Source: a virus
Virus record (IMG/VR): IMGVR_UViG_3300010883_018031
Location: 1-36,622 of that record
Direction: 5' to 3' (one strand)
DNA length: 36,622 bases
Every line of letters begins with the position of its first letter. Position 1 is the first letter of the stretch. The notes beneath the pieces were generated by a model. The model saw only the letters and a list, made by a program, of their open reading frames with translations, searched no databases and was not told where the DNA came from. A program made the translations under genes and the position numbers. Shown in pieces: positions 8,768-36,622 of the stretch.

Positions 8768-8987
8768 TAAAATTAAAATGAGTTATAAGCAATCAATAAG
8801 ATGCAAAATAACGTCTGGAAGATATGTAGAGTATAAAAACCTTTCCATATGTTGCATAAATGACTTTTATTCACCAATGAACAAGAAAATAAGATACCAA
8901 GTTCATTCAAAGTTCTTTAGCGAGCTTTATGATGACATTGAAGAAGCGTTAGGTAAATTTTTTGAAATTAGAAGAAAAATTAGATAA
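8760..8987 (+). CDS. Hypothetical 75-residue protein between polymerase halves
   Basis: Small basic protein with no recognised family. It starts with MSDKIKMSYKQS, has two adjacent Cys (SICCIND) in the middle, and ends in an amphipathic, Arg/Lys-rich helix (EEALGKFFEIRRKIR). AAGGA stands six bases before the ATG, and the start overlaps the dnaE-N stop by eight bases, so it should be translated with the polymerase half. It has neither homing-endonuclease motifs nor intein blocks. A role as a linker or clamp for the split polymerase is possible from location only. Confidence 0.6.
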   Translation: MSDKIKMSYKQSIRCKITSGRYVEYKNLSICCINDFYSPMNKKIRYQVHSKFFSELYDDIEEALGKFFEIRRKIR

Positions 8988-8998
8988 AGGGTGTAGCT

Positions 8999-11673: not shown

Positions 11674-12139
11674 AAGTAAATTCAGAACTCAAGAAGAGCT
11701 TGAAGAAGAACTCGTTCATAGACATTATGGACTTGTTGTTTTTCAGGCTCTTTCTTTTTTAGAAAGTTCTCACTTTGACGATTACGTTCAAGCTGGATTA
11801 ATTGGATTGTTAAAAGCTATTAGAGGACATGATGAATCTAAATCTAAGTTCAGTACATTTGCTACAGTATGTATAAGAAACTCTATATCAAAGCTTAGAG
11901 ATAAGATAAAGAAAAATGAACAAAGACTAGTTGCTCAAGTAGATCGTTTATATAATACACAAGATAACATACTTGACTATTTGCCTGAATATCTTTCCGA
12001 AGAAGACTTATTTATAATAAAACTAAAGACACAAAACTACACCAATAGCGAAATTGCTAGCTATACATCTTCTAGTAAAGATGAAGTAAAAATCAAAATA
12101 AAGGCAATAATAAAATTGTTAAAAGAAGTAAACAAATGA
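11645..12139 (+). CDS. Small sigma factor, gp55-like
   Basis: 164-residue RNA polymerase sigma factor likely to redirect host polymerase to phage promoters. A sigma70 region 2 is clear: DDYVQAGLIGLLKAIRG (region 2.1/2.2) and SKFSTFATVCIRNSISKL (2.3/2.4). The C-terminal third (LSEEDLFIIKLKTQ... to the end) resembles a much degenerated region 4. There is no region 1 or clear region 3. Length and simplicity are like T4 gp55, the late sigma factor that reads -10-only promoters. The start ATG lies inside the ssb end with no clear Shine-Dalgarno; a TTG at 11699 is a less likely alternative. Expressed from the ssb promoter, it would appear before late genes. Late-sigma function is inferred. Confidence 0.78.
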   Translation: MKTKNKNLNKSKFRTQEELEEELVHRHYGLVVFQALSFLESSHFDDYVQAGLIGLLKAIRGHDESKSKFSTFATVCIRNSISKLRDKIKKNEQRLVAQVDRLYNTQDNILDYLPEYLSEEDLFIIKLKTQNYTNSEIASYTSSSKDEVKIKIKAIIKLLKEVNK

Positions 12140-14867: not shown

Positions 14868-15873
14868 CCCTGTATCTAGTATCATAAGAGCCTCTACAAG
14901 AGAACCAAATGAGAAGTTAAACATATTGACTTTTCCTACTCATGAACGATACGAAAGCATGTTGGCAAAAACCGGACATAGTTTTTATTCGTACAGAGCA
15001 GAAGGTATAAAAGACTGGAATGAAACATACGCTAAACTTCCAGATAATTATCATCTTCTAAATCCCGAACTTGGAAATGAACAAATACCAAGTCATGTAG
15101 ATTTTGATTTAGTCCTATCTCAGAATAAGTTTGGACAATTTCAAAAAGCTCTTGAACTGTCTAAGTTGATGCATCTTCCTTTGGTAAGCTTAGAACATAC
15201 TCTTCCAGTGCCTCAATGGGACGGAGACATATTAGATCAAGTCAGAAACATGAGAGGAGATTTAAATCTTTTCATATCTGGACATAGTATTGGCGAATGG
15301 GGATGGGAAGAGCAAGATGACACCCAAGTTATTAATCATGGTATTGATACTGACTTATTTTGTTCGCATGATGGAGAAAGAGGAGACGAAATCCTTTCAG
15401 TGGTAAACGATTGGATTAATCGTGATTGGTGTTGTGGGTTTAGTATTTGGCAAAACGTTATTCAAGGACTGCCGTACAAGGTGTTAGGAGACACGCCGGG
15501 ACTTTCTGAACCCGCAGCATCAACCGCAGACCTTGTATCGGCTTATCAAAACAGCTCCATTTTTCTTAATACATCTACAGTGTCTCCAGTGCCAACAGTC
15601 TTAATGGAAGCAATGGCTTGTGGGTGTGCAGTTGTGTCAACAGAAAATTGTATGATTCCTGAAGTCATTAAGCATGGAGTTAATGGCTTTATGACTAACG
15701 ACCCTAACGTAATGAAACAACACCTTGTTGATTTATTAAATGATAAAGGCATGGCTAAAGAGATTGGCGACAATGCCAGACAAACAATACTAGACAGGTA
15801 TTCTACTAAACAGTTTGTAGATAGATGGCAAGAAGTATTATACAGCGCAGCTAATATAACATTTAAGGGATAA
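14860..15873 (+). CDS. Glycosyltransferase, GT4-like
   Basis: 337-residue glycosyltransferase. The first half is divergent (LTFPTHERYESMLAKTGH, LPLVSLEHTLPVP). The second half has INHGIDTDLF, SSIFLNTSTVSPVPTVLMEA and MACGCAVVSTENCMIPEVI, which matches the GT4 donor-binding segment with a variant loop in place of EGFGLP. AAGGGA is eight bases before the ATG, which overlaps the upstream stop by eight bases. It is the third consecutive GT-B enzyme, suggesting sequential addition of different sugars to one acceptor. Confidence 0.8.
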   Translation: MINPVSSIIRASTREPNEKLNILTFPTHERYESMLAKTGHSFYSYRAEGIKDWNETYAKLPDNYHLLNPELGNEQIPSHVDFDLVLSQNKFGQFQKALELSKLMHLPLVSLEHTLPVPQWDGDILDQVRNMRGDLNLFISGHSIGEWGWEEQDDTQVINHGIDTDLFCSHDGERGDEILSVVNDWINRDWCCGFSIWQNVIQGLPYKVLGDTPGLSEPAASTADLVSAYQNSSIFLNTSTVSPVPTVLMEAMACGCAVVSTENCMIPEVIKHGVNGFMTNDPNVMKQHLVDLLNDKGMAKEIGDNARQTILDRYSTKQFVDRWQEVLYSAANITFKG

Positions 15874-15874
15874 T

Positions 15875-16339
15875 ATGAAGATAAGAGTAACTGTTGGAGA
15901 AACAAACAAGCTTAATGGATATATTAACGTAGATCCAGTTTCTAAATTTGATGATTTATCTACAGATGTTCGTAATTTAGATGACATCGCCGCAGATGCG
16001 GAATGTACAGAGATTATATCGGAAGGTGTTATAGACTTCTTAGAGAAGAGCGATGTAGCAAAAGCCCTCACTAACTGGACAAAAAAAATAAGGCACGGCG
16101 GTAAGATAGTAGTAACATCAATAGACGCTCGTGAAGTTTCAAAAGCTTTTTATCGAAATCAAATGACTGCTGATGAGTTTAACCGACTTATTCATGGCGG
16201 ATTTTCAGGAGCTTGGGATGTTTACCTTAGCCATACCACGGCAGAAGAACTGTCTAGTTTTTTTGAGGCTCAGGGGTTCAAGGTAACAAAAAAGAGAATT
16301 AACAATTTTAAACTATTAATAGAGGCTTGCAGACCATGA
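15875..16339 (+). CDS. Degenerate SAM-methyltransferase-fold protein
   Basis: 154 residues resembling small SAM-dependent methyltransferases found in sugar clusters. The opening (VTVGETNKLNGYINVDPV) aligns by eye with the usual LGCGTNKLDGYINVD pattern, then SDVAKALTNWTKKIRHGG and KIVVTSID match the L-x-PGG strand. The SAM-binding G-x-G motif is not intact (VGETN). This could mean altered cofactor binding, a catalytically dead scaffold, or simply divergence. Its C-terminal part (HTTAEELSSFFEAQGFKV) is also typical of the fold. AAGGGA precedes the ATG. It lies among glycosyltransferases, so sugar O-methylation would be the expected role if active. Confidence 0.55.
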   Translation: MKIRVTVGETNKLNGYINVDPVSKFDDLSTDVRNLDDIAADAECTEIISEGVIDFLEKSDVAKALTNWTKKIRHGGKIVVTSIDAREVSKAFYRNQMTADEFNRLIHGGFSGAWDVYLSHTTAEELSSFFEAQGFKVTKKRINNFKLLIEACRP

Positions 16340-17163
16340 CCGCAGAAATTATAGACGATTCTTTTGAAGAAGTGGAAGTAGAAGAGCAGGAGCAGATTAT
16401 AACCACTTCGTGTCAAAAATGCGTGTTTTCTGTAAAAGAAGAAAAAACACAAGTGGGATGTGAGCTTGGTAAGATTGACATACTCATTGCGCAGGGTGTC
16501 AATGTTATTGAAGCAGAAGATTTAGAAGAAAATGAATTCTATGTCTTAGAACACGGATGTCGAACATATAGAGAAGAAATTTGGAAAACGGCAAATAAAG
16601 GTAAAGATTTAAGAGAAGTTTTAGAACAAGAAACTCATCCTAGAATAACTTTTATTATTTTAGTACGAGATGATTTAAACGAAATGGAAATAACCGTAAG
16701 ATCAATCCTAAATCAAGAAAAATTTAAACCTCGTCAAATATTGATAGTAAATACTAGAAGTCAAAGCTATCTAGATTTGATTGAAAAATCTAAGTCTTTA
16801 TTAGAAGATAGCGGAGTTCCCTACAAAGTTCAAAATCTTATTAACGAATTAACAGACGATGAAATTATAGACGAAGTATTTGGAAATGTCGTTAACGGTT
16901 TTTATAGCGTGTTTGAATCTGGAAAAGAAGCACCTACCGACCTAATAAAAACATTAAACCAAGCATTAAGCTATGATGTTAAAAAAGCCGGATATGTAAA
17001 AGGGTTTGATGGAATCAATGGTCTTACTGTTCAGGCGGCTCTTCATAAATTCTTATATGGTAATAAAGGCGCTAGCTTAGAAAAGAAAATTCGAGAGGGT
17101 GAAGAATATGATGAAGTTGAATCAACAAACTCTCTAATCAAAACTTGGGATGAACTAAGATGA
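16336..17163 (+). CDS. Cys-motif domain fused to GT2-like domain
   Basis: 275 residues. After an acidic N-terminus comes a compact Cys motif, C26-x2-C29-x12-C42 with C75 in HGCRTYREEIW, probably binding zinc or an Fe-S cluster. From about residue 97 a GT-A/GT2-like strand-helix pattern follows (RITFIILVRDDLNEMEI, VRSILNQEKFKPRQILIVN), but no DxD motif is visible, so it is probably catalytically impaired or non-enzymatic. The C-terminal part is helical and charged. I choose ATG 16336, which overlaps the previous stop (ATGA); a TTG at 16327 is less favoured. The next gene is a complete GT2 enzyme overlapping its stop, so the two may form a pair. Confidence 0.6.
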   Translation: MTAEIIDDSFEEVEVEEQEQIITTSCQKCVFSVKEEKTQVGCELGKIDILIAQGVNVIEAEDLEENEFYVLEHGCRTYREEIWKTANKGKDLREVLEQETHPRITFIILVRDDLNEMEITVRSILNQEKFKPRQILIVNTRSQSYLDLIEKSKSLLEDSGVPYKVQNLINELTDDEIIDEVFGNVVNGFYSVFESGKEAPTDLIKTLNQALSYDVKKAGYVKGFDGINGLTVQAALHKFLYGNKGASLEKKIREGEEYDEVESTNSLIKTWDELR

Positions 17164-17948
17164 CACTCTCTACAGTCACTATATTAATAGCTAACTATAA
17201 TGATGAAAATTATATTGATAAAGCTATAGAAAGTGCTATCAACCAAGACTATCCCGGAAAACTCAATATCTGCATTGTGGACGATGGGTCTACCGACGGG
17301 TCTTGGAAAGTGATTCAATCCTATTTAAAAAATTCAAAGAGAGATGAATCGCACGATTTAGAAGTTTATAAAACAACAAATACAGGTAGGTACGGCAATA
17401 CTAATATTATAGCTATTAAATCTCCTAATGGCGGGCCAAGTAGCGCTAGAAACATTGGGATAGAATATACCATTAGCTTTACTGACATATACGCCATCTT
17501 GGATTCTGACGATGAGATGTATGAAGATAAAGTTTCATCATGTATAAAAGTTTTCTCTCGTGGCGAAGGAATGATTGGTGTTGTTTATGGGGACTACGAC
17601 ACCCTTCATTCTGATACAGGAAAAATTATTAGGGAATATAAAGAGCCTTACAACAGAAAACGTTTAGTCCAAGAATGTATAGTCCATAGCGGATCTTTGA
17701 TTTCAAAACAAGCCTTAGAAGCAGTGTTAGAAGAAACGGGTTTCTATGACTCTACTATGAGGACATGCGAAGATTACGATTTATGGATGAGAATTAGCGA
17801 AAAGTTTATAATAGCCCATGTGCCCAAATCTTTGACCAAAGTAAGAGTAACAGGGAATAATTCATCTTTTATTGTTAACCAAGAAATATGGCGAAACAAT
17901 TGGGTAAAAGTCATGGAAAAACGACAACAGAGGATGCATGCCCAATAG
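17160..17948 (+). CDS. Family 2 glycosyltransferase
   Basis: 262-residue GT-A fold transferase. Hallmarks in order: VTILIANYNDENYIDKAIES, ICIVDDGSTDGSW, NGGPSSARNIGIE, the metal-binding AILDSDDE (DxD motif), and CEDYDLWMRISE, the ED catalytic-base region. No C-terminal membrane helices, so a soluble enzyme. The start overlaps the preceding stop (ATGA). It should add a single sugar from a nucleotide-sugar donor. It is the clearest active GT-A enzyme in the cassette. Confidence 0.88.
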   Translation: MTLSTVTILIANYNDENYIDKAIESAINQDYPGKLNICIVDDGSTDGSWKVIQSYLKNSKRDESHDLEVYKTTNTGRYGNTNIIAIKSPNGGPSSARNIGIEYTISFTDIYAILDSDDEMYEDKVSSCIKVFSRGEGMIGVVYGDYDTLHSDTGKIIREYKEPYNRKRLVQECIVHSGSLISKQALEAVLEETGFYDSTMRTCEDYDLWMRISEKFIIAHVPKSLTKVRVTGNNSSFIVNQEIWRNNWVKVMEKRQQRMHAQ

Positions 17949-18645
17949 ATTCACAACATCAATAAAAAAAGAGGGAGCAGGAAGAGAAAAAGGCTTACCT
18001 TTAACCGTTATTATCCCCGCTGCGGGAATGGGTCATAGAATGAAATCTTATGGCCCTAAATGCTTGCTGCAAGCAAACCAAAAAGAAACAATATTAGAAA
18101 AAACCGTTATAAATATTAAACGTGAGTATCCTTATGCGGATATAATTGTTGTAGTAGGTTTTGAATCAACAAAGGTTATAAATTCACTTCCTCATTACGT
18201 AAGGATTGTAGAAAATACAAACTTTGAAAAAACGAGCGTTGTTGAAAGCATAAGATTAGGAATAAATGCTTCTTCTACTAGAAACCTATTGTTAATATAT
18301 GGTGACTTAATATTTAATGTTTATTCAATAAGAAACTTGACTTCTTCTGGCCCCTGCTCTGTGATTGATTCCAAATCAAGATTCAAAGAAGAAGAAGTAG
18401 GAGTAACGGTAGTGGACGATTTAATCACTATGTTTTCTTATGGGCTTCCTAATAAATGGTCACAGATAATATATTTTGAGAATGAGTCCTTTGATATGTT
18501 AAAAGATCTCTGCTCAGACAAAAGAAAAAACAAACTTTACCCTTTTGAGTTATTTAATATTATTATAGAAAACGGAATTGATATAGAAGCTAAAGAGCCA
18601 AAAGGCATGATTATAAAAGAAATAGATTCATTAAAGGATTTATGA
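17938..18645 (+). CDS. Sugar/alditol nucleotidyltransferase-like protein
   Basis: 235 residues of the NTP-transferase fold that makes nucleotide-activated sugars or related compounds. The signature nucleotide-binding segment is near the N-terminus: IIPAAGMGHRMKSYGPKCLL (G-x-G-x-R...PK). DIIVVVGFES and LLIYGDLIF provide the second strand and the metal-binding Asp region. Substrate is unknown; CTP-dependent (choline or glycerol-type) and hexose-1-phosphate types are both possible. The start lies within the end of the GT2 gene, with AGAGG upstream. It likely supplies a donor for the cassette's transferases. Confidence 0.75.
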   Translation: MPNRFTTSIKKEGAGREKGLPLTVIIPAAGMGHRMKSYGPKCLLQANQKETILEKTVINIKREYPYADIIVVVGFESTKVINSLPHYVRIVENTNFEKTSVVESIRLGINASSTRNLLLIYGDLIFNVYSIRNLTSSGPCSVIDSKSRFKEEEVGVTVVDDLITMFSYGLPNKWSQIIYFENESFDMLKDLCSDKRKNKLYPFELFNIIIENGIDIEAKEPKGMIIKEIDSLKDL

Positions 18646-18646
18646 T

Positions 18647-18796
18647 ATGAAAGAATTTTGGGGTTATATTAACACAAACGGAATATGGTATGCTTGGTAT
18701 TTTGTAGACAAGATTCCGCAAAAAAAACTAGGCCCATTTGAAACAAATACAGAGGCTAGACAGGCAGTAAAACACTATGAAGATTCTAATAAGTAG
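18647..18796 (+). CDS. Hypothetical 49-residue protein
   Basis: A short ORF filling the gap between the nucleotidyltransferase and the next glycosyltransferase. It begins MKEFWGYINTNGIWYAWYF, is rich in aromatic residues, and has a KLGPFET...EARQAVKHYE end that resembles small phage proteins with a GPF-x-T-xx-EA pattern. AAAGGA stands eight bases before ATG 18647, which supports translation, and the stop overlaps the next gene by 20 bases. No function is recognised. Confidence 0.6.
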   Translation: MKEFWGYINTNGIWYAWYFVDKIPQKKLGPFETNTEARQAVKHYEDSNK

Positions 18797-19823
18797 CGAT
18801 GGCCCTCATGCTCACTATTACATAAGGTTATCTTGGTCTAAAGTGTTCTCCTCTATGGGACACGAAGTCCAATTCTGGCATAAAGACCAAAAACCGGCAT
18901 TTGATGCTTTTGACGAATTTGAGCCAGACTTGTTTATGGGTCAAAGTTATCACATTAGTGAAGCATTAATTAAATGTATAAAGTCTAGACCACACATGAA
19001 GGTGGTAATGCGAGCCTCTGATTGGGGCGACATGCAGAAGGAAATCGATTTAGAAAAGTATCCTATTCTTGTAGCTCAAGAAAAAGAGAAAAAGTTGATG
19101 GAACGATTGAAGATAGAAACCGGAAAGCCGGATTTTGTTCACAATCATTACCACGATAACTGGATAAAAGTAACGCATAACAAATGGAACGATATAGGTA
19201 TAAGGCCTATTTCTCTAATACACGGGGCAGATGTATTCGACTTCTCCCTTAGGCCTTCAGTAGAGGCTCTTAAGTGTGACATAGGATTTGTAGGAGGTTA
19301 TTGGCCATATAAAGCTATAAACCTAGATAAATACTTGATTAATCTATGTCATCCTGTTGGGGATTATAACATTAAAATATTTGGAACATCAGATTGGCCA
19401 GTCACTCAATACTTAGGGAGGATAGCCTCTGAGAATGTTGGGTCACTATTTGCTTCAGCAACGATCTCTCCTAATATAAGTGAACCCCATTCGCAAGATT
19501 TTGGATATGACATTATCGAAAGACCCTTTAAGATTCTTATGTCTGGTGGTTTTTGCATCTCCGACTATGTAGAGTCTATGGTAAATGATGTATTCATCAA
19601 TGGCGAAATGGTCTTTGCAAAAACCCCTGAAGAATTCAAACAATTAGCAGACTACTATATTAAAAATCCTGATGAGCGTTTGAAGTATATGAAGGCTGGA
19701 TATGAATCGGTTGTAAAAAACCATACATACTTCCATCGTGTTGCAAAGATATTTACCGAGTTAGGTATGGAACAAGAAGCTGATAAATGTATTAAAGTAA
19801 TGAGCAGTTTATTCGAGGTATAA
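18777..19823 (+). CDS. Glycosyltransferase, CgeB-like GT-B
   Basis: 348-residue protein with a GT-B layout. The first half has ILISSDGPHAHYYIRLSWSK and GHEVQFWHKD; the second has DIGFVGGYWPYK, ISPNISEPHSQDFG, IIERPFKILMSGGF and a C-terminal helical segment (KTPEEFKQLADYYI...DERLKYMKAGYE). That C-terminal part matches the glycosyl-transferase domain shared with CgeB/spore maturation proteins. The start lies within the short ORF upstream. It is the fourth GT-B enzyme of the cassette. Acceptor unknown. Confidence 0.78.
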   Translation: MKILISSDGPHAHYYIRLSWSKVFSSMGHEVQFWHKDQKPAFDAFDEFEPDLFMGQSYHISEALIKCIKSRPHMKVVMRASDWGDMQKEIDLEKYPILVAQEKEKKLMERLKIETGKPDFVHNHYHDNWIKVTHNKWNDIGIRPISLIHGADVFDFSLRPSVEALKCDIGFVGGYWPYKAINLDKYLINLCHPVGDYNIKIFGTSDWPVTQYLGRIASENVGSLFASATISPNISEPHSQDFGYDIIERPFKILMSGGFCISDYVESMVNDVFINGEMVFAKTPEEFKQLADYYIKNPDERLKYMKAGYESVVKNHTYFHRVAKIFTELGMEQEADKCIKVMSSLFEV

Positions 19824-19824
19824 C

Positions 19825-20754
19825 ATGACTGTACTAGTAACCGGAGCCAGTGGGTTCATAGGTAGACACTTAATAAAAGAACTACATCAACATGAGCGTG
19901 TTTTTGGGGGTATCGTTTGCGTAAACAGACAACCTTTCTCGTCTCCGTTTATACAAAAATCATATAGGTGTGATTTGGGAGATTCCGACAGGAGTGAAGC
20001 TAGTTTTTATGGCTTGAAATACATCATGAAACAGTACAACCCTAAACATATCTTTCATCTTGCTAGTAAGGCAACCGTTAAGATGGAAGGTGACGAGCCA
20101 TTTTCGATGCTTGAAAGCAACATACTCAGCACGCAGAAGGTCTGTCAATGGGCTCCGAAAGGAGCTAAGGTCGTGCTGGCTTCTTCTGTTATCGTTTACG
20201 GCGATAGAGATTCCTCAGGGGGATATACAGAAGAAGACATTACAGACCCAACTTCGATATATGGAATGACCAAAAGAGCCTCTGAGAGTATCTTAAATTA
20301 CTATACTAGCACGGGGCAAATAAGAGGTGTTTCGGCCCGTATGTGTGCGACCGTTGGGCGTGGGTTAACCCACGGGGTTGTTTATGATTTTATTAGAAAG
20401 TTGAAAAATAACCCAACTTTAGAAGCGCTAGGGTCTCATCCGGGTTCGGTTAAACCATACTGCCATGTTGACGATTTAACTCAAGCCCTGATGTTATTGT
20501 CTATGGGTGAAGCATCTGGTGTTTATAATATAGTTCCTGATGATATGATAAACATTGAAGAAGTAGCAGAAACTGTAATGGCGAGTTTAGAGATTTACAA
20601 AGATATAGAATGGCTTGGTGAAAAATCAAATTGGAAAGGTGACAACAAACTAATATCTGTTGACAATGCAAAAATAAAACATTTGGGATGGACCCCTAAG
20701 TACAAGTCAAAGCAAGCTATCGTCAAGGCTGTAAAAGACATAATCAAGTCATAG
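19825..20754 (+). CDS. NAD-dependent sugar epimerase/dehydratase (extended SDR)
   Basis: 309-residue nucleotide-sugar-modifying enzyme. The Rossmann NAD motif TGASGFIG is at the N-terminus, HLASKAT follows, and the catalytic triad elements are present: ASSVIVYG (Ser) and SIYGMTKRA (Y-x3-K). The C-terminal substrate-binding part is normal (KPYCHVDDLTQAL, GVYNIV). Exact reaction (4-epimerase, 4,6-dehydratase or reductase) is not readable. It is the first of three consecutive SDR genes, so a multistep conversion of one NDP-sugar is likely. Confidence 0.85.
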   Translation: MTVLVTGASGFIGRHLIKELHQHERVFGGIVCVNRQPFSSPFIQKSYRCDLGDSDRSEASFYGLKYIMKQYNPKHIFHLASKATVKMEGDEPFSMLESNILSTQKVCQWAPKGAKVVLASSVIVYGDRDSSGGYTEEDITDPTSIYGMTKRASESILNYYTSTGQIRGVSARMCATVGRGLTHGVVYDFIRKLKNNPTLEALGSHPGSVKPYCHVDDLTQALMLLSMGEASGVYNIVPDDMINIEEVAETVMASLEIYKDIEWLGEKSNWKGDNKLISVDNAKIKHLGWTPKYKSKQAIVKAVKDIIKS

Positions 20755-20772
20755 ATAAGTTACGGAGAAATT

Positions 20773-21705
20773 ATGAAAATTCTAGTTACTGGAGGTGGTG
20801 GTTACGTAGGAAATGTTCTATGTCGCCAACTATTAGACAAGGGATATAAAGTTAAATGTTTAGACAACTTTAACAAAGGTCAATGTGATGCAATCATACC
20901 ACTGGCTATCAATCCTAATTTTGAGTTTGTATATGGAGACGTAACAGTTTCCACGCAAATAAATGAAGCCGTTAAGGGGTGCGATGCAATCATTCACTTA
21001 GCAGCTATTGTAGGATTTCCAGACTGTGCAGCTCAGCCAGCACTTGCTGAAGTTGTTAATGTTCAAGGAACTATGAACGTTATAAACGCAAGAAATCTAC
21101 AATCTAAAGACATTCCAATTGTTTACGCTTCTACAGGCAGTGTCTATGGTAAGGTGGAAGGTACATGCACAGAAACTTCCCCATTAAATGCGGTATCTGA
21201 ATATGGCTTAAATAAACTAGTCGCAGAGAAGATGATGAGAGAAGAAGAAAATACTGTATCTTTTCGTTTCGCAACTGGGTTTGGAGTTAGCCCATCAATG
21301 CGGGTGAACCTTCTTGTAAATGATTTCGTATATCAGGCAGTCACAAATAAGATTCTTACTATTTTTCAAGCTGATTTTCGCAGAACCTTTATCCATGTTC
21401 GGGATATGTCCAAGGCTTTTATAATGGGCTTTGAAAATATGGGCAATTGGAGCCATTCTGTGTATAATTGTGGGGCGAATCACCTGAACTGGACAAAGAG
21501 AGAGTTAGCAGAGTATGTTAAAGAGCATACAGGATGTTTTGTTCATTACGAAGAAATTGGCACAGACGCTGATCAAAGAGATTATGAAGTTAGTTATGAT
21601 AAACTAGACTCCGAAGGGTTCTCTTGTGATGTTGACATGAAAACCGGAATACAAGAATTAATCAAAGTAGCACCCCTTTTACAAATAAGACATCAGTACG
21701 CATGA
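20773..21705 (+). CDS. NAD-dependent sugar epimerase/dehydratase (extended SDR)
   Basis: 310 residues. NAD motif TGGGGYVG, HLAAIVG, Ser in ASTGSVYG and catalytic EYGLNK (Y-x3-K) are all intact; C-terminal segments RRTFIHVRDMSKAF and VYNCGANHLNW fit the family. GGAG lies eight bases before the ATG. The pattern is close to NDP-glucose/UDP-hexose epimerases and dehydratases, but specificity is not clear. It works within the cassette, presumably on the product of a neighbour SDR. Confidence 0.87.
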   Translation: MKILVTGGGGYVGNVLCRQLLDKGYKVKCLDNFNKGQCDAIIPLAINPNFEFVYGDVTVSTQINEAVKGCDAIIHLAAIVGFPDCAAQPALAEVVNVQGTMNVINARNLQSKDIPIVYASTGSVYGKVEGTCTETSPLNAVSEYGLNKLVAEKMMREEENTVSFRFATGFGVSPSMRVNLLVNDFVYQAVTNKILTIFQADFRRTFIHVRDMSKAFIMGFENMGNWSHSVYNCGANHLNWTKRELAEYVKEHTGCFVHYEEIGTDADQRDYEVSYDKLDSEGFSCDVDMKTGIQELIKVAPLLQIRHQYA

Positions 21706-22655
21706 TAGACTTAAAAGACAAAAAGATATTAGTTACTGGCAGTCAGGGATTCCTAGGTTCTGCTATCTGTAAGAAGATAGAAGAAAAAGGTGGAATACCG
21801 ATACTAGTTAAAAGTGAAGAAGTAAACCTACATCATGTAGAAGCAATTATACATTTCTTGACTGCCTCTAAGCCAGACTACTGTATTCACGCTGCTGGCT
21901 ATAACGGAGGAATTGAATTCAATAGGATGTATCCCGCAGATATACTATATTCAAATACTATAATGGGATTGAATCTTCATTATGCCTGTCAATATGTAGG
22001 TGTTAAAAAGATGGTATCTATAATGACCTCTTGCGCTTATCCAGATACGGGTATGGATTTATTAAAAGAAGAAACCTTCTGGGAAGGTCAACCGAATAAA
22101 ACTATTAGAGCACACGGAATAGCAAAGAGAACATTACAAACCGCAGCAGAAGCTTACAATGAGCAATACGGACTAAATGCCGTAACAGTTTGTGTTACCA
22201 ACCTGTATGGCCCAAATGACACCTTTAATCTTATTAGAACAAAAGTTGTCGGGGCTTTAGTAAAGAAATTTGTTGAAGCAATGCAAGAAGGCGAAGATAG
22301 CGTAGAATGTTGGGGGACTGGTGACCCAATGAGAGAGTTCATGTATGTGGACGACGCTGCCGAAGCGATAATTCAAGCTTTACAGAAATACGATGATCAT
22401 AGCCAACCACTTAATATAGGTACGGGGAAAGATATATCTATTAAAGAACTGGTAGAATACATATCTAAATCTATTGGCTATCAAGGTAATGTACACTGGA
22501 ATACAGACAAGCCTGACGGACAACTTAAAAAATTGCTAGACACAACAAGAATGCAGGAGTATATTGACATTACTCCTATAGATATAGAAGACGGTATTAA
22601 AGCAACTGTAGAATGGTACATAGAGCACAAAAAATATGCCGATAGTAAAAAATAA
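21702..22655 (+). CDS. GDP-L-fucose synthase-like SDR with Tyr-to-His change
   Basis: 317 residues resembling GDP-4-keto-6-deoxymannose epimerase/reductase (Fcl/WcaG). Matches: TGSQGFLGSAI (NAD motif), HAAGYNGGI, NTIMGLNLHYAC, TSCAYPD (the Ser/Cys catalytic region), TNLYGPNDTF and GTGDPMREFMYVDD. The usual catalytic Y-x3-K is H138-GIA-K142: the codon is CAC where TAC would give Tyr. This may change or abolish the reduction step, or the Tyr role may be taken elsewhere. No GDP-mannose 4,6-dehydratase (Gmd) partner is obvious, although the two SDRs just upstream could supply a substrate. Start overlaps the previous stop (ATGA). Confidence 0.78.
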   Translation: MIDLKDKKILVTGSQGFLGSAICKKIEEKGGIPILVKSEEVNLHHVEAIIHFLTASKPDYCIHAAGYNGGIEFNRMYPADILYSNTIMGLNLHYACQYVGVKKMVSIMTSCAYPDTGMDLLKEETFWEGQPNKTIRAHGIAKRTLQTAAEAYNEQYGLNAVTVCVTNLYGPNDTFNLIRTKVVGALVKKFVEAMQEGEDSVECWGTGDPMREFMYVDDAAEAIIQALQKYDDHSQPLNIGTGKDISIKELVEYISKSIGYQGNVHWNTDKPDGQLKKLLDTTRMQEYIDITPIDIEDGIKATVEWYIEHKKYADSKK

Positions 22656-26545: not shown

Positions 26546-29500
26546 TTATCCTCCTTGTATAGTTTCGTGTATGTTGCAATGAATTACTGAATTTCCTTGT
26601 TTTCCAAATGCCAATTCTAAATCTTCAAACGCAGGCCCATCATAATGATGGGGATAACATTTACCCTCACAATTCCAAAAACTTAGTGGACCTCTTGAAT
26701 TACAACATATCTGGGGGAAGTCCAGCCAAAAATCTAAATTAACAGGGCTGTCACTATTTGCATCTCTGCAATTATTTTCAGGAACAGGAGCTCCTACAAT
26801 CACATCAAATGCTCCTCCATGCCTAGTCCAATAAGAAAATTTGTCTGCGTTTTCTTCAGTTGTGTATTGTGAGTAATCTTCTTTGTCTTTTGCCCCACCA
26901 TTAAAATCTGTTACGGTGCAATTAGTCAAGTTTTCAGTAATTGTAGTATTGCCGTTAGCTCCAGCCCCTCTTTGAGTTAAAGTTAATACTCCAGAGCCAT
27001 CATGCTGTACAGAAATCATTCCGTTATGACCGTTTGCATGTCGGATAGAAGCTTGGAGTGCCGAAGCAGCTGCAACTTTAGTAGTATTAACAAAATGACC
27101 ATCTGCGGCAAGTGATGAAGCTTTAGCAGTATAAGTTTTAACAACCCCGTCAGCGTCTTCGATAGTAATAGTTTCATCAATATTGCAATCACCGGTAAAA
27201 GTAATAGTCGCGGTAGCAAAATTATCCATGAATTGGTTGCCTGCAATTTCTCCAATGTATATAACACCTTTCCACTTTCTTTTTGATGGCCCATAATTAT
27301 ATACAGATGGTTTTCTTTCCAAGGTGTCTAAATATACCCTATCCCTGCCATCTTCATTGACTCCCATCTTAAACATGTTCGCTTTATCTCTAAACAAAGA
27401 GTCTCTAACAACACGTTTAGAATAAGGAAAATCAAAAACTTTATCTGCTGCGTCGTTGTCTACTCTACTTCTATAAACTTTTCTTGCCGGAGTGTTAAAA
27501 TACCCGTCATATAAAACTGTGTGATCCGCAGCCTCACAGTCTTGTGGGGTTTGGACTGCTACATATGCTTCAGGTTTCGGGTTGGGTAAGCCCAGCGGTG
27601 TTGAATCAAAACAGATAAAATTATAAATTACCTTTTCATGACAATTTTTAGATTCTTGTATTCCCAAGTGATATCCTTGTTGGGGAAGTATAATATATCC
27701 GTTTATGTCGGTGCATTGTTTTATAGTCTTTTCAAATAAACAATGTTCACGGAATTCTTTTTCGCATTCATCTATGTTTGATACATATGGTGAATAAGGC
27801 CGAAGCCCCGGAGGGTTATTTGTGGGGTCTGCGTACCAGCCCTTGTAATCAAATATCGTAGCTCCATACAATATCTCATCTTCAACATCTGGGTATGGAG
27901 CATCTTCAAGTGACGACAAATTTCCTTCGTTATTAGTCGTTATGTGATATTCGTCAGTTATTATAAAACCATATGCCTGAGGTAAAGGTTCCAGTTCTTC
28001 AGCATCTTTAGTCTCTATTTCGCCTCGTACGCTTGATGGAGATAAATACTTGTATATTGATGAGCTTCTAGCAACAATATGAGCTCCATCAACGGGAGAT
28101 AAAGGACATCCTATTAGAGTTCCATCAAGGTCTATAATGCAATCATGACATTCTCCTTTAGGGTTGTCGTCTGTTAATGGATCACATGCGTTCTCTGTAT
28201 AAAAACCTTTTAATTGACATGATACAGGGCATCCCTTTTCAAAATCTTCTTGTCTCCCCGGTAAATCATGTGGTCGAAGATTATTTGGGTCAACATAAAA
28301 ACCATTTGCATCAAGGTCATCGTTTCTAATTCCTACTACCCATTCTCCCTCAAAAGCATCGCACAGTCTTTGGTCTCCATCTGGATAATCATTGACAACC
28401 TGAACCCATTTTCCTCCATATCTTGAACATTGATTTATATCATAGCTTTTTCCAGAACCACTAGGTGTTGAGCAATACCCCATTCTAGAGTTTCTACATG
28501 TCGCTCTATAAGCTATGGTTGAGCTAATTATAATCTTTTCATCTTCTTTAAAAGGAACTGCACCCAATGGCGATGTCTCATTACTCATCTTGTTGTACAC
28601 CACAGTGTGTAGAAAATTAGGAATCCACACGTACCTATTATTCGTGCAATCAGTAAATGTTTTATAATTTTGGTTTCCTGCGCAATACCCAGCCTTTTCA
28701 TCTTCGTCGTATACGTTTTCAAAAGACGTTATTTCTAACTCTGCTTTTACTCCAATCTTGCTTAATCCTACAAATTTGTCCGTAATTTTTTTATTACCAC
28801 GCAAATACTCAAGAGAGCTAAGAGTGACTCCAGTTCTTCCCGGATTATTGATGTCTCCTATCGTTCTAAGACTTTCTAAATTGTCTGAAAGAATTTCTCC
28901 TCTTGGCCACATTGTACTTTCTGAGAGACCTGATTTAGTTTGTGTTCCTACTGGATATGGATTAATCCCAAAAGGATGCGGCATCTCTTTATTGGTTTCT
29001 CTATTAGTATCGGTAATTTTTAAGAATTTTGTCTCATCGTCACCACCGCCTACTTTCTCCCCATATCCTATATCTCCGTATTTTAAGTGTCTATTTTTTC
29101 TTGGGTTTTTGGTGATAAGCTGTGTCACGTCTTCGACATCAATAAGCATATAGTTGTTCTGACCATACTCTTCCCTTCCTACACTATCACCAATGCCAAG
29201 CAGCTCTGGGGCATAGTAAGTACCGGGCGGTGTCCCTGTCCAAGCATGAGCTTGACCGTCCTTTATAGGACTAGTTAATACAGTACCTCTTAACAGAGGG
29301 TTTTTTGACTTATTATTTCTTGGATAGCTACCAAGAGTATCAGATTCTGCATCCTGTAAATCAGCTAAACCCACGCTAATCGTTGTGCCTGCGGAATAAC
29401 TACAGTTTCGTTGTTTTCCTTCACGCGGAATATCTACAACTACACCACCCACACCATGAGAATTTAGCGGATAAGCGTTGACAACAAGGGTTCCAGCTCC

Positions 29501-32500
29501 TGTTTCATGGTCAACATTAATTATGTCATAAACAGTAAACGTTTCTGGTGGTTTTTTAGGTGTTGGATCAAAGCCTATAGTTTGGCATTTATGAGATATA
29601 TCCCCGCCTGTAGAACAAGCAACTGCCCCAGACCATAATGGCCCCTCTAACTGGTATTGGTGGTCATTACCTACATATGTGCAACATATAGTTTTGTGAC
29701 AAGGGCCTTTTGGTCCACAATGATGAGAATTTACACAAGTTCCAGCAAAAGCATACTTTCTTTCATCATCCGGAATATCTACAACTACACCACCCACAAA
29801 AGGATACTTCACAGGAGCGTTTAGTCGGGAATCTTTAGTAGTACACCCTACCAACTCCGGAAAACAAGGATAGTTACCACGAACTCCATCACTTACACGA
29901 TTAGCTCGTAACGTCTCTGATATATTATTATTATGGAATGTGCAATTAGTAATCTCAGCCCATAGCTTTATCCCGTTATCTTTATAAGAATGAGGACCGG
30001 GTCCAAAACCACCGTCATTTAAATACCCGTCTTCTATAGAAGGTATAGCATTACCGCAGCCCATTATTAGTCTAATAAAATGACCATCTTGTTGATTCAC
30101 TTCCCCGTGGGAAGTAGCTTTTGTTGGGTCGATAGGATTTTTTACTTCACTCCATTTGCCTGAGTTTTTGTTAAATACTCCTCTTCTAATTGCTTGAGGC
30201 ATATCACATCCATTGCAATCAGCATTTATAGGAATGATCTCCTTAGGGTTACCATTACCGTCATTTATATGACAATTTGTGTCCCACTTTAATTTCTTAC
30301 ATTGTTTAGTGCCTACCTCTTTCATAAGAGTCCATTCAGAACGCCAGACAGTTCCGTCATATTCTAAATCAACATCTAAAAGAGAGACAGAACCCGGAGA
30401 GCTCGCGGTAGCAACCTCTTTCAATGTTGGAAGACCCGGACAGGTGTTATCTACTGGCACTCCTCCATAGCTATAGTTATAGCATGAATCATCCACCGTC
30501 GCGCTTTTAGATTCTATAAAACCACATCCAGTTGACGCTGCATTATCATAAATGTGTATTCCCGACAGCGGCGGCACCTGCTTTGTCTTCTGTTGTTCAC
30601 ACGAATTCGAACCTTCAGTATCGAAAGGATGTACTATATCCGGTTCACATTGCATAGCAACATTGTTAGGATAACAAACACATGGGTCAAAATCCCAATA
30701 ATAGGAAAACGTTGCTGGCACGCCGCCCCCTGCGGGAACGACTACTTTTCGTTTACAAGTTCCTGTAAGATTACCCTTGGTTACTATATCCCCAAAGGTT
30801 GTAAAATCACATTCTCCCGCCCTTGAAACAAATTGTTCACATGTAGGAAATTCATTTTCATCTTGAACGCAATCACATGGATCAAATCCCGACCAACCTG
30901 TGCAGCAAGATTGCCCATTGTTACTCATAGGACCACCCGGCGGCCCGGTGACGGCATTGCCTGTACCGTCATGTAACGGTATCTTGTTTTGTTCGGTATG
31001 TACATGAGCACAACTTTTTTGTGAACCACGGCCACTCGACCCACAGCAACTACCATTGTATCTGATTGCCAGCAGATCGTTGCTCGCCATGTCTCTGGAG
31101 TTGTAATCTTCAATCCAAACATGATCTACGCCTGCGCCTGCACAATCAGCCGCATTCTTAAAAGCTGTTGTATTTCCCTTATCGTCTAAACAAACTTGTG
31201 GTTCAAAACATGTGTCTACACCACACCCCATCAAGTTTAAAATCTCACTAGATTCAGCATTTAACGTAGCGGTTAGTTTTTCTGGCATAAAATGATCACA
31301 ACAAACTGGACAAATACCCTTTTGTTCAATTTGCACATAGTAATCGTTGGCATCAGGTTCTGAACGTTTGCTAGTCCCACCAAAGTTTTCTCTGTATTCT
31401 ATATTAAAGGAATCAGGGCTTGCGTGAATCATGTAGTCCGGAGCAAGGTTTTGATTGTAAGTTATCCATTCTCCGGTAAATGGACACGCCTTATAAATAG
31501 AGCCGCCGTAAAGTCCAGTTCCACCGCTCGAAATTACTAATCTCTTGTCAGCCCACGTTGCAGGATTCCAACATTTGTCAAAGTTTGTGCCGCCAACAAC
31601 ACAGTTGTTATATAAGTTTGTTGAAACAGTGGGTTCTTGCCATATGCCACCATAGGCTGAACACATTGCCTGTGTGAGGTTGGGATCAACTTTGCCAGCA
31701 ACAATACATGCCGAATGCTTCGTTCTACAAACTTTGGCAAAGTCTGCAAAATTAAATATGTTATCTAGAAGTTCTTGACTATTATCTCTATCTCCATTTA
31801 TATCAAAGCAGGCGTTGATGTATTTTTGTTTAGTGTCCGTGTATGGTAAACCCGGATGAACTTCAGAAAAAGCCTTTGCCAATTCAGTACAATCTTCTTT
31901 ACTCATAAAAGATTCGTCAATGCCCTCTGCGTTAAAGGGTATAACGCACATTCCATAGTTGGCACATGTTGATGCGTTAAAAGGTCCTGCTTTAGGCCCT
32001 GAAATAGTGGGTAATTGAACATTCCCATAACCTTTAGGATCAACTTCATAGAATTGACTTACGATTTTTTCATACGTTGCTACTCCATAATTAGAGACGC
32101 AAACCATGTCGATAGGAACAGTGCTACATTTTAAATCTCCCGCAAGGTTTATCCTATTTGTGATTTGTCCATCAACAGGAGTTTTATCGCAAGTGTATAA
32201 ATCAAACGTATCTATAGTTGTATTTTTAGCTACAAAGAAGGGAGCTGGGTCAGGTTCTTCTCCACCAATTACAGACCCGTCACAAGCAAAGAATTTATTA
32301 CTATCGCAATACTCAACCCAAGTTCCGGGATTAAGCCATGCTGATCCTCCGCATCCTAGCGCGCCTCCTTTATTACAGGCGTACACAGCTGGAGTCCATT
32401 CCCAGTCATTGGAAGGACTACAGTGACCCTCATTCGCCGGGTCTCTTGGGTGTTGTCTGCCCGATGGAAGCCATTTATATTGTGGGTATATTACCCATTG

Positions 32501-35500
32501 ACCCGGCGGACAGTCTTGTAGTGAAAAACCCCCGCATCCGACGCATACGCATTCGGGGTCTTTTGTTACACAGCTAGCCTCATTCAGATTAACTGGCACA
32601 TCTCCCGCAGTATTTATACATTGACCAGCTTTGGCTAAACATGAAAAGGTTTTTGTTACGACTTTACCATATCCACTAGGGCACTTGCACCCTGCTTGCG
32701 TTGTTGATCCTTGGCAAGGAACCGTCTTTGCTTTACTATCAAGGCACTCTTTTTTTGACAAACAGGTGCTAGCATCTTCTTTAAGTGTCTCTTTGCCGTT
32801 TGCGTCTACGCATTCTCCAGTACGACAGCTTAAAGGATTTTTATTTGGTATTTTGTTTCCGTTAGCATTTTGACATACAGTTTCGTATGGGCAAATCGAG
32901 TTAGGCCATGTTATTTTATCGCAAGTCTCTCCAAAACAAGGTTTGTAAATAGTATCTTCCCATTGAATCCCCATCCGCTCTCTATTAGACATGACGTTTG
33001 CGGCAAAGTTTCCTAAGACTCCTTTTACGTCAATTAAGTCTCCATCATGAAGAAAGTGGTTTCGAGAAGTTATTTTTATAGGACTGCTATTGCTTGCGTA
33101 TTGAATTCTTCCACTACCGATAGTTCCTACACAGCTATTATTAACATAGCTGGCTATTTCTCCTTTAGGAAATAAACCAGTTTCATGCCAATACTCCATT
33201 GAATCTCTGGTGCCCGCAGCGTTTGATCCTATTAATTCGTCAGGAGAAACTCTTAACTTAATAATGTTATCTAACTCTCGTAGTGGATAACCCGAATAAT
33301 CATTGGTTTTCCCAACCTTTCCCAATTTAGCAGGCATCCAAATTCCGCCTGCGGCTTCACAGTCAGTTTCGTTTGGTTCGTTAATTATAATTCGATTTCC
33401 ATTTACATCAAAGCCTTTTGCGCATTTGCCAATGTCGCCATTCGCACAAGCGGGGTAAGGTATTCCTTGTACAACAGTTCCATCGTGAAATACACATTGC
33501 CTTTCTCCCAATACAATGTCAGCAAAATCTTCTGGAATTAGTTCTGGCTCAATACATGTCTCAAATGTTTTAATACTTACGCATTCTTCTGTCCATTCTC
33601 CTCCAGCTCCCGGCGGAGTATCATTTACAGATCTTTCACATTCATCTTTGTCTGCCGCATCTCTAAAGAAATAAACCGGTGTCCCAGCGGCTAAACTCGC
33701 TGCTGCGTCATATTGTTGTACTTGTTCATTACAACGTTCTGACCATTCGCAACACGCCTCCCATTTAGCAGGTTCCCAAGTTTCGCCTGCCAAAATACAA
33801 GTAGTTTCATCAATTATGCCCGGCTGCCCAACGCATTTACCTTTAGTGTCACAATCAGCTTCTTTCGCGTGTTCAAAGGTATCATCATGGAATTTACAAG
33901 TCCCAGTAGTCGCACACGTAGCTTTAATAAGTTTTTCACACTTAGGGCAACTAAAATCGTTATTAGCAGAGTCACTATGAGGATACCACCCAACCCACTG
34001 AGCAAAACCGCAGGTGCTTTTTGTCAAAAATCCAATATGGTCTTGTATATAACCTCTAGCTAAATCAGAGACTCTTTCACAGTTACCTCCGGGTTTAATA
34101 CCTGTGTTTGCTGGTCCCCCTGAACCAGTAACAAGAATTTCATCGTTGGCTATGAAATCATAGTATAAGAAATAGTCTGGACCGTAGTTCCAGAACCAAC
34201 CGCCGCCGCCTGTTCCAACACCTTGAATCCATTCAGCGTTACAGCTATTTGGGTTTATTACCGGATCAGCTTCACAATCATCTTGGCTGCATCTTCTTCC
34301 GGGTATCCACGATCCATCACAACCACCAGTTGCTTTAGCTAGATGACAATTGTTAACGTCACATTCACCCCCAGCAGTCCATGTTCCAATACCTTGGAGA
34401 ACACCGTTCGCGTCATATTTACAGTCATCTCTGCAAGAAGTTTCATCTAGACATTTAGCACCGTCAGTCCATCGTGATTTACATATATTTGCATCTTGAC
34501 ATTTATCTTTAGTGTCGCATTGTACTGCATCAACCCATTCTGAATCACAACCTCCATTGGTTATAGAATCTCTACATTTTTGTTTGTTTGTACAGTTTGA
34601 ATTCCATGTTCCACCACACGTATTAACACGGGCGTTGTTTCTGGCAACAGGGTTTTCACATGATGTTGAGTCTTTACATATATGTTCTGGTTGGAAATAC
34701 CCTTCGTAACCCAGATACGCTAGCTCCGCTATGCAGGCCGCTTCGTTATCAATGACGGCACCCCCAACGGCCTCGAATCCAAAAATTTCCGTATCTGCCG
34801 CAGCACCATTTTTCTGCCAGCATCCTGCTGGTATTGATTCGCTACAAGACTTCTTACAATACGCCGGCACTTCTGGTTTCGCACAACTTCCTTTTTTAAA
34901 CTGATCGCATTCTCCTTGTTTAAGTTTGTCACATGACCCCGGATATGTTCCTGTACAATATGACTTGCCTAAAGCGTGGTCTACACATAACTGCCAGTGC
35001 CTATGGTCTATAGCTGCTTGTTCTAGAGTCTTGGCTCTATTTTGTTTTTCTTCAGTGGCTTTAAATGGCTGTGGCTGTAAATTAAAACCATAGAATCTAT
35101 CAGCTCCTTTAGCATTAAGCATATTGCCAAAGAATTTGTGGTTTAAAGTTGAATCAGCTTTGCGCCACCAAGTGGGACCGGCGTCATAATAGGTCCATTG
35201 GTCACAATGAGAGCCCCAACCCGGTGCCGCAGAGCCACCGTTTTTATCTTGATTCAAATGATCTCCTCCTGATTCCAGCACTCCGTCTGCAATGCCGTCC
35301 ATATTAGCATCAGGCCAACTACACCACCATTCCCATCGATTTTTGTTAATGGCGTCTCCGGGGAATGGTCCAGCAACTCTTCCGGGATAAACAGAACTAA
35401 ACAATTGCTCAGCAGGATTGCCCATAATGCTACCCATTGTGTGATTCCACAATGGTTGCGGTTCTCTCCATTTGGTTCTGCTTTGAAAACCTGATCTATC

Positions 35501-36622
35501 CGTAGTTCTTCCAGAGTCAAACGGGTCTGTTGGAGTAATCTCGTCACTTAGTGTTAGATTAAAGTTAGAATCATTCAATAACTGGTTTACCGGAATGTTT
35601 AAAACTATTTCTTCTCCGGCTTGACTATCTCCCTCCGGGTTGTTTGGATTTCCACAGCTTCTCCAAAATGCGCATGGTCTTATAACTAAAGTCCAATAAT
35701 CCTCAGTATCAATTAAGAACGTTTCACGATCATGTTGATTATTAATCGACATTGTTGGGGCAGTAAGGGTATATTCTGCATGAGGAGTAAAGCAAACTGG
35801 GTTTTCCATATTAGGATCATCAGCTTTTACCATCTGCGGGGTTCGTGAAGGGTGATCGTAGTTTAATATCGCACCTCCGCAACAGGATTTCCTGTCATAA
35901 TCCCAGTCAACCCATTCATAATTTAAAGTTAAATTTTTAACCCATACATTTTCCGCGTCTACACAATCATCTCTAGTTGAGTACTGAAGCTCTTTATCCC
36001 CTTGGGAGTTTACGCAATGATCAGTGCCGCAATTGGGGCATTCGGGAGAACTAATGGATTTTATCCCACCTTTTATACATTTTGATTTAGTGTCCCATAG
36101 CATTGTCTGGGCCATATTCAGCATGCGTTCTACAACCTCTGTTCCATATATAGGATTTCTACACCATCCATCTTTTTTATTTGGAGTAAATCCATCTACA
36201 ATACAAGTATCCTTATCGTGCATTTCAAGAGACTGAGAACTAACAGAAACCTTTTGATTGGCAAAATTAATTAGAGGGTCGGCGGGTTGTCCAGAATCAA
36301 ATTTTTTCCCATCAGCCCCTACTAGCTTCTCATCTAGCTCTAATAGGTCTCCTATTTCCTGATTAGGAGACCAGTCTTCTTCTCTTGTCCTGTAAGCATT
36401 TGCTCCCAAGTCAAACTGATCATTTACTTGGTCGTTGCTGTCTAAGAATTCACCTTTAAACGCGCCTTTTTGGGAAGCAAATCGGCCATTTGCATAATGA
36501 CAGTTAGAAGGATCTCCATTAGGAAGAGTTGTTACTTTGCACGGGTCGCAATATTTTTCGTCGCCGCAACAAGCCCTGCCTCTCCAAGCCCCCTTGGAAT
36601 ATTGTAAATGTACTGTAGTACC
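26546..36622 (-). CDS. Giant Cys-rich virion protein (fibre/adhesin-like), N-terminus outside window
   Basis: The - strand frame is open from the right window edge to a TAA at 26546-26548, at least 3358 residues; no true start is present (a TTG at 36409 is internal, since coding continues 71 codons upstream). By a hand count it has about 168 Cys, roughly 5 percent, very high for a phage protein. A degenerate unit recurs: Cys, then a D/N-x-x-G turn, 6-15 residues, Cys, then G-G/E-x-W, for example CSAYGGIW, CEAAGGIW, CSRYGGKW, CTNNRYVW. Ca-binding-like loops occur (DANMDGIADG near 35300, DINGDRDN near 31800). A stretch of about 240 residues near 28690-29395 has no Cys. Near the C-terminus (about 26890-27225) lies a beta module (ITFTGDCNIDETITI...TENLTNCTVTDFNGG). 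Likely a virion fibre, tape or surface adhesin; exact role unknown. Confidence 0.8.
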   Translation of the reverse strand, partial: GTTVHLQYSKGAWRGRACCGDEKYCDPCKVTTLPNGDPSNCHYANGRFASQKGAFKGEFLDSNDQVNDQFDLGANAYRTREEDWSPNQEIGDLLELDEKLVGADGKKFDSGQPADPLINFANQKVSVSSQSLEMHDKDTCIVDGFTPNKKDGWCRNPIYGTEVVERMLNMAQTMLWDTKSKCIKGGIKSISSPECPNCGTDHCVNSQGDKELQYSTRDDCVDAENVWVKNLTLNYEWVDWDYDRKSCCGGAILNYDHPSRTPQMVKADDPNMENPVCFTPHAEYTLTAPTMSINNQHDRETFLIDTEDYWTLVIRPCAFWRSCGNPNNPEGDSQAGEEIVLNIPVNQLLNDSNFNLTLSDEITPTDPFDSGRTTDRSGFQSRTKWREPQPLWNHTMGSIMGNPAEQLFSSVYPGRVAGPFPGDAINKNRWEWWCSWPDANMDGIADGVLESGGDHLNQDKNGGSAAPGWGSHCDQWTYYDAGPTWWRKADSTLNHKFFGNMLNAKGADRFYGFNLQPQPFKATEEKQNRAKTLEQAAIDHRHWQLCVDHALGKSYCTGTYPGSCDKLKQGECDQFKKGSCAKPEVPAYCKKSCSESIPAGCWQKNGAAADTEIFGFEAVGGAVIDNEAACIAELAYLGYEGYFQPEHICKDSTSCENPVARNNARVNTCGGTWNSNCTNKQKCRDSITNGGCDSEWVDAVQCDTKDKCQDANICKSRWTDGAKCLDETSCRDDCKYDANGVLQGIGTWTAGGECDVNNCHLAKATGGCDGSWIPGRRCSQDDCEADPVINPNSCNAEWIQGVGTGGGGWFWNYGPDYFLYYDFIANDEILVTGSGGPANTGIKPGGNCERVSDLARGYIQDHIGFLTKSTCGFAQWVGWYPHSDSANNDFSCPKCEKLIKATCATTGTCKFHDDTFEHAKEADCDTKGKCVGQPGIIDETTCILAGETWEPAKWEACCEWSERCNEQVQQYDAAASLAAGTPVYFFRDAADKDECERSVNDTPPGAGGEWTEECVSIKTFETCIEPELIPEDFADIVLGERQCVFHDGTVVQGIPYPACANGDIGKCAKGFDVNGNRIIINEPNETDCEAAGGIWMPAKLGKVGKTNDYSGYPLRELDNIIKLRVSPDELIGSNAAGTRDSMEYWHETGLFPKGEIASYVNNSCVGTIGSGRIQYASNSSPIKITSRNHFLHDGDLIDVKGVLGNFAANVMSNRERMGIQWEDTIYKPCFGETCDKITWPNSICPYETVCQNANGNKIPNKNPLSCRTGECVDANGKETLKEDASTCLSKKECLDSKAKTVPCQGSTTQAGCKCPSGYGKVVTKTFSCLAKAGQCINTAGDVPVNLNEASCVTKDPECVCVGCGGFSLQDCPPGQWVIYPQYKWLPSGRQHPRDPANEGHCSPSNDWEWTPAVYACNKGGALGCGGSAWLNPGTWVEYCDSNKFFACDGSVIGGEEPDPAPFFVAKNTTIDTFDLYTCDKTPVDGQITNRINLAGDLKCSTVPIDMVCVSNYGVATYEKIVSQFYEVDPKGYGNVQLPTISGPKAGPFNASTCANYGMCVIPFNAEGIDESFMSKEDCTELAKAFSEVHPGLPYTDTKQKYINACFDINGDRDNSQELLDNIFNFADFAKVCRTKHSACIVAGKVDPNLTQAMCSAYGGIWQEPTVSTNLYNNCVVGGTNFDKCWNPATWADKRLVISSGGTGLYGGSIYKACPFTGEWITYNQNLAPDYMIHASPDSFNIEYRENFGGTSKRSEPDANDYYVQIEQKGICPVCCDHFMPEKLTATLNAESSEILNLMGCGVDTCFEPQVCLDDKGNTTAFKNAADCAGAGVDHVWIEDYNSRDMASNDLLAIRYNGSCCGSSGRGSQKSCAHVHTEQNKIPLHDGTGNAVTGPPGGPMSNNGQSCCTGWSGFDPCDCVQDENEFPTCEQFVSRAGECDFTTFGDIVTKGNLTGTCKRKVVVPAGGGVPATFSYYWDFDPCVCYPNNVAMQCEPDIVHPFDTEGSNSCEQQKTKQVPPLSGIHIYDNAASTGCGFIESKSATVDDSCYNYSYGGVPVDNTCPGLPTLKEVATASSPGSVSLLDVDLEYDGTVWRSEWTLMKEVGTKQCKKLKWDTNCHINDGNGNPKEIIPINADCNGCDMPQAIRRGVFNKNSGKWSEVKNPIDPTKATSHGEVNQQDGHFIRLIMGCGNAIPSIEDGYLNDGGFGPGPHSYKDNGIKLWAEITNCTFHNNNISETLRANRVSDGVRGNYPCFPELVGCTTKDSRLNAPVKYPFVGGVVVDIPDDERKYAFAGTCVNSHHCGPKGPCHKTICCTYVGNDHQYQLEGPLWSGAVACSTGGDISHKCQTIGFDPTPKKPPETFTVYDIINVDHETGAGTLVVNAYPLNSHGVGGVVVDIPREGKQRNCSYSAGTTISVGLADLQDAESDTLGSYPRNNKSKNPLLRGTVLTSPIKDGQAHAWTGTPPGTYYAPELLGIGDSVGREEYGQNNYMLIDVEDVTQLITKNPRKNRHLKYGDIGYGEKVGGGDDETKFLKITDTNRETNKEMPHPFGINPYPVGTQTKSGLSESTMWPRGEILSDNLESLRTIGDINNPGRTGVTLSSLEYLRGNKKITDKFVGLSKIGVKAELEITSFENVYDEDEKAGYCAGNQNYKTFTDCTNNRYVWIPNFLHTVVYNKMSNETSPLGAVPFKEDEKIIISSTIAYRATCRNSRMGYCSTPSGSGKSYDINQCSRYGGKWVQVVNDYPDGDQRLCDAFEGEWVVGIRNDDLDANGFYVDPNNLRPHDLPGRQEDFEKGCPVSCQLKGFYTENACDPLTDDNPKGECHDCIIDLDGTLIGCPLSPVDGAHIVARSSSIYKYLSPSSVRGEIETKDAEELEPLPQAYGFIITDEYHITTNNEGNLSSLEDAPYPDVEDEILYGATIFDYKGWYADPTNNPPGLRPYSPYVSNIDECEKEFREHCLFEKTIKQCTDINGYIILPQQGYHLGIQESKNCHEKVIYNFICFDSTPLGLPNPKPEAYVAVQTPQDCEAADHTVLYDGYFNTPARKVYRSRVDNDAADKVFDFPYSKRVVRDSLFRDKANMFKMGVNEDGRDRVYLDTLERKPSVYNYGPSKRKWKGVIYIGEIAGNQFMDNFATATITFTGDCNIDETITIEDADGVVKTYTAKASSLAADGHFVNTTKVAAASALQASIRHANGHNGMISVQHDGSGVLTLTQRGAGANGNTTITENLTNCTVTDFNGGAKDKEDYSQYTTEENADKFSYWTRHGGAFDVIVGAPVPENNCRDANSDSPVNLDFWLDFPQICCNSRGPLSFWNCEGKCYPHHYDGPAFEDLELAFGKQGNSVIHCNIHETIQGG
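29426..29453. repeat. 28-bp exact direct repeat, copy 1
   Basis: Identical to 29771-29798, starting CGGAATATCTACAACTACAC. Both copies are in the same frame of the giant gene and encode VGGVVVDIP. The copies are 345 bases apart, and the flanking protein sequence differs. Confidence 0.9.
29771..29798. repeat. 28-bp exact direct repeat, copy 2
   Basis: Second copy of the repeat at 29426-29453. Identity at the base level, without identity beside it, suggests recent gene conversion or a selected short module rather than an old domain duplication. Confidence 0.9.

Follow-up and report, generated by a model that had tools for sequence, protein, structure and literature searches.

A giant cysteine-rich open reading frame at the edge of the window, a 36,622-base viral contig, likely encodes a virion protein of the distal tail, of the tail-tip, central-fibre or adhesin type, made up of disulfide-pinned mini-domains. 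The frame is open throughout its span (Table 1). A first-pass annotation had put the protein at more than 3358 residues with about 168 cysteines by hand count; the exact count is 168 (5.0%), together with 68 tryptophans, in the 3358 visible residues. Comparison with orthologs makes the protein longer still, as these start upstream of the window edge and the window copy is short of approximately 100-200 N-terminal residues. GC content at codon positions 1, 2 and 3 is 0.49, 0.45 and 0.30, respectively, and dN/dS is 0.15-0.28 for close ortholog pairs and 0.26-0.29 for more distant ones. Codon-position GC and ortholog dN/dS values of 0.15-0.29 thus establish the reading frame as a real protein under purifying selection.

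The gene was found in 11 further IMG/VR contigs (L093/G002, L094/G001, L106/G013, L109/G014, L113-L117, L123 and L124), two of which were reached via the 187-aa gene downstream and the others through searches with the 604-type, core and C-terminal blocks. Where both ends of the gene lie within the contig, the copy measures 3424-3810 aa; those of L123 and L124 run off the contig ends at 3327 aa. The orthologs are 33-55% identical to the window protein. A direct pattern search of the viral contigs with the whole protein gave no match. Searches of Pfam, PHROG and NCBIfam returned nothing up to an E-value of 1, and there was no match to PDB sequences or to GenBank phages. The same was true of tblastn searches of named phages with giant, hub-like, 604-like and cassette-rich pieces, and bacterial and archaeal genomes scanned with the core block yielded no relative. 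As a family the giant is new to the curated libraries and the named-phage collection searched, and it probably functions in the manner of known tail-tip or fibre proteins. Residues 3129-3250 weakly resemble a domain of the upstream 1115-aa tail protein (E-value of only 0.013).

Table 1. Features of the giant gene and its downstream neighbours; all lie on the minus strand of the window.
Feature	Residues	Position	Strand	Remarks
Giant Cys-rich ORF	3358 aa visible	26546..36622	-	5' end lost at window edge; orthologs 3424-3810 aa
Cys/Trp cassette 1	203-230	35933..36016	-	CVNSQGDKELQYSTRDDCVDAENVWVKN; profile 25.3 bits (seed)
Lineage-specific stretch	546-848	34079..34987	-	26 extra Cys (24 in G002, 0 in other orthologs)
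Tandem Cys/Trp array	649-801	34220..34678	-	common only to closest ortholog; self-BLAST
Cys/Trp cassette 2	930-951	33770..33835	-	profile 14.7 bits (seed)
Cys/Trp cassette 3	1071-1098	33329..33412	-	profile 22.5 bits (seed)
Cys/Trp cassette 4	1643-1664	31631..31696	-	profile 17.4 bits (seed)
Conserved non-repetitive core block	2175-2390	29453..30100	-	query for finding relatives
Cys/Trp cassette 5	2717-2741	28400..28474	-	profile 16.4 bits (seed)
Stretch missing in closest ortholog	3129-3250	26873..27238	-	present in window protein
Conserved C-terminal block	3250-3358	26549..26875	-	
187-aa gene directly downstream	187 aa	25981..26544	-	conserved neighbour; C-terminal CGC domain widespread in viral contigs
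Last gene of cluster	236 aa	25227..25937	-	conserved

The window ends inside the giant gene, and the operon is seen on the longer related contigs, where the order is tape measure, ~900, ~780, ~1800-2035, ~604, giant, 187/205 and 236 aa; the giant thus occupies a distal position after the tape measure. The tape-measure protein is 2500-2700 aa long and matches the PHROG tape-measure family with an E-value of 1.7e-25. A very long tape measure implies a long tail, and this uncultured phage group is probably long-tailed. The product of the ~604-aa gene upstream of the giant contains 13 cysteines. The names hub-like and Dit-like for the neighbours are suggested by gene order only, and these proteins gave no convincing PHROG match. 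The C-terminal ~60 residues of the 187-aa product, with the CGC motif, recur at about 80 viral loci whose gene contexts differ widely.

Gene order supports the predicted assignment of the giant to the virion. That it is not a tail virion protein might be argued from the gene's place, with only two further genes between it and an opposite-strand replication block, and from its being missing in relatives whose tail operon is similar. However, wherever the contig reaches, it immediately adjoins the 604-aa and hub-like tail genes on the same strand and in the same order, and its recurrent cassette, described below, also occurs in PHROG-called tail proteins and in the products of the 2035-aa and 785-aa tail genes upstream. 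We therefore consider a non-virion role improbable. The fibre or adhesin function proposed in the first-pass annotation draws support from the tail-gene context: by position the giant is likely such a protein, and probably host-facing, as a predicted function.

A 604-type gene preceded by similar genes is also found in ten more distant contigs. Among those reaching beyond it, most have no same-strand giant after it, and one of the ten (L128) ends too soon to show. The giant is not a universal tail part, given its absence from relatives whose tail operons are similar. In another of the ten, L127 (10800-17279), an unrelated-looking protein of 2160+ aa with 3.8% cysteine takes the giant's slot, here downstream of a fused hub/604-type gene.

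The recurrent element of the giant is a two-Cys unit of ~28 residues with the pattern C...T-x3-C-x3-GG-x-W. A degenerate Cys/GG-Trp repeat had been described at six places, and it is real at five of them, all five copies having served as profile seeds; at the sixth, 28615-28685, there is no clear cassette, only a weaker variant scoring below 4 bits. The cassette profile, which was built from inserts with seeds taken partly from the window giant and its orthologs, gave 53 matches of at least 6 bits in the giants and neighbouring upstream tail proteins, 26 of them non-seeds, and none in local shuffles. Self-BLAST of the giant returned one significant internal repeat, residues 649-718 against 724-798 (37.7 bits, compared with a shuffle maximum of 27.7), the remainder being noise. 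Internal repetition is thus upheld by the profile and by this one self-alignment, but not by the other self-BLAST pieces. A single novel repeat fold running along the whole length, as originally envisaged, would agree with a profile well above shuffles and with the tandem array. Yet the 3358 aa contain no more than about five clear copies of some 28 aa each, the majority of the conserved blocks show no repetition, and insert positions vary between orthologs. A continuous repeat protein is accordingly very unlikely, and the cassettes are better described as insertions scattered among non-repetitive conserved blocks.

The first-pass annotation had suggested looking for the repeat in other viruses, and it is present there in proteins of unrelated phages. 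A DNA pattern for C-E-A-A-G-G-x-W matched at least 120 viral stretches, and the majority of ten pattern-bearing ORFs that were scanned have matches in PHROG tail families, among them tail fibre, gpJ (E-value of 5e-227) and baseplate wedge. This recurrence in gpJ, tail-fibre and baseplate-wedge proteins means that the cassette is not unique to the giant. Two of the fibre proteins also contain CBM_5_12 matches, which do not coincide with the cassette. Compared with gpJ of Bcep176, Vibrio phage NF and ZQG1, some gpJ homologs (L150, L166 and L193) carry the cassette as a cleanly inserted loop of ~26 residues. A two-Cys cassette inserted into unrelated tail proteins offers a source of new disulfide-pinned surface loops that can be put to the test.

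The gpJ protein of lambda-like siphophages, which acts as the central tail fibre or tip attachment, resembles the giant in being a large distal-tail protein encoded late in the tail operon. However, no sequence relation was detected, the giant having no match to PHROG 31, Phage-tail_3 or FNIII-A_GpJ (Pfam) up to an E-value of 1, and it is approximately three times the size of the annotated gpJ genes seen and far richer in cysteine.

AlphaFold models of residues 1-560 (A6) and 1600-2480 (A5) were poor overall, with a mean pLDDT of 35, and Foldseek and VIA-align returned no structural match for the giant models. Segment-wise prediction, which had been proposed as a check, thus left the overall fold without a model but did produce confident stretches of module size. 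In A6 the sole confident stretch is cassette 1 (pLDDT 67-75), and in A5 the first 70 residues, including cassette 4, are confident at a pLDDT of 66-86, as is a region around residues 1930-1980. The two separate models agree in placing the first cysteine on a strand, the second in a short helix and the tryptophan on a second strand.

The evolution of the cysteines is consistent with disulfides. Across eight near-complete orthologs, the gapless alignment columns hold 102 cysteines, of which 78 (76%) are invariant, compared with 17% of all residues and 38% for tryptophan, the next highest; in five orthologs the figure is 102 of 113. Between invariant cysteines, extra cysteines are even in number in 59% of cases in the eight-ortholog set, against 33% under random scatter (maximum 44%), and in 57% against 29% in the five-ortholog version. 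Gains in length-variable intervals were even in 40 cases and odd in 13 (binomial P 1e-4), although these events are not fully independent, as orthologs share ancestry, and MAFFT tends to align cysteines. Duplication of two-Cys units further weakens the parity signal, but a two-Cys unit that is complete in itself is just what would be expected from one internal disulfide. The even-number bias fits the prediction that disulfides are gained and lost in pairs, and together with cysteine conservation above that of other residues it gives the pattern expected of a disulfide-rich protein. To this extent the earlier suggestion that many of the cysteines could pair gains support.

The cysteines could instead be ligands for zinc or iron-sulfur centres. 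Invariant CxxC/CC pairs at residues 25/28, 892/895, 1771/1774/1775 and 2136/2139, and synthesis in a reducing cytoplasm, speak for a metal-binding protein. Against this, gains most often comprise exactly two cysteines (15 of 53 events), no more than two are present in the cassette, and histidine is barely conserved (10% invariant), which makes metal binding an unlikely explanation. The gene lies at the end of a conserved tail operon, and its product alternates conserved blocks with variable Cys/Trp inserts. In the preferred disulfide-pinned architecture, the cysteines would pair inside small mini-domains and would probably be oxidised during or after lysis. Such a chain would resist proteases and shear, and the cassettes inserted in it may vary the surface meeting the host.

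Disulfides are known to stabilise phage tails outside the cell. In Agrobacterium phage Milano, which has a contractile tail, the tail structural proteins are reported as cysteine-rich and are joined by disulfides that link sheath and baseplate chains, and cysteine averages 2.1% across the phage's structural proteins (PMC10811340). The giant differs in being one chain with 5% cysteine, far above even such disulfide-rich virions, and its pairing would be expected mostly within inserts. Inter-ring disulfides in the T1 tail tube (PMC11945409) and disulfides in the crassvirus tail hub (PMC10172136) are few bonds between known folds, with no giant cysteine-rich chain. Having as many as ~80 disulfides in a single chain would pose the problem of how a phage could oxidise them.

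Adjacent tandem thioredoxin genes are present in seven of the 12 giant-bearing records, all of them the longer ones. In all six thioredoxin loci read, WCGPC is followed by WCPHC; CPHC is the active-site motif of DsbA. The tandem loci L258 (G002:12869-13442), L259, L260, L261, L262 and L263 lie near a ribonucleotide reductase (RNR) gene. The five giant-bearing records without the pair are fragments; one of them, G020, is 73 kb but is also without the RNR region. No thioredoxin match was found in the ten relatives that lack the giant, and in one relative, G023, RNR is present although thioredoxin is not. Because RNR (PF02867) occurs in the same seven giant-bearing records, it confounds the link between the pair and the giant, and the pair may simply serve RNR. 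The CPHC protein had no homolog in named phages, and a search for an Erv/ALR-type sulfhydryl oxidase found none. It is doubtful, if conceivable, that CGPC and a signal-less DsbA-type CPHC protein form a cytoplasmic oxidative-folding system dedicated to the giant's disulfides inside the host; if so, the pair would be a phage counterpart of the redox pathways encoded by large eukaryotic DNA viruses.

Elsewhere in the window, the DNA polymerase III alpha frame at 6851-11255 appears split into parts of 638 and 543 aa, with a 227-aa exonuclease-like ORF (8999-9682) between them. Positions 12136-22655 on the plus strand hold a long run of genes that, from their translations read by eye only, look like glycosyltransferases and sugar epimerases.
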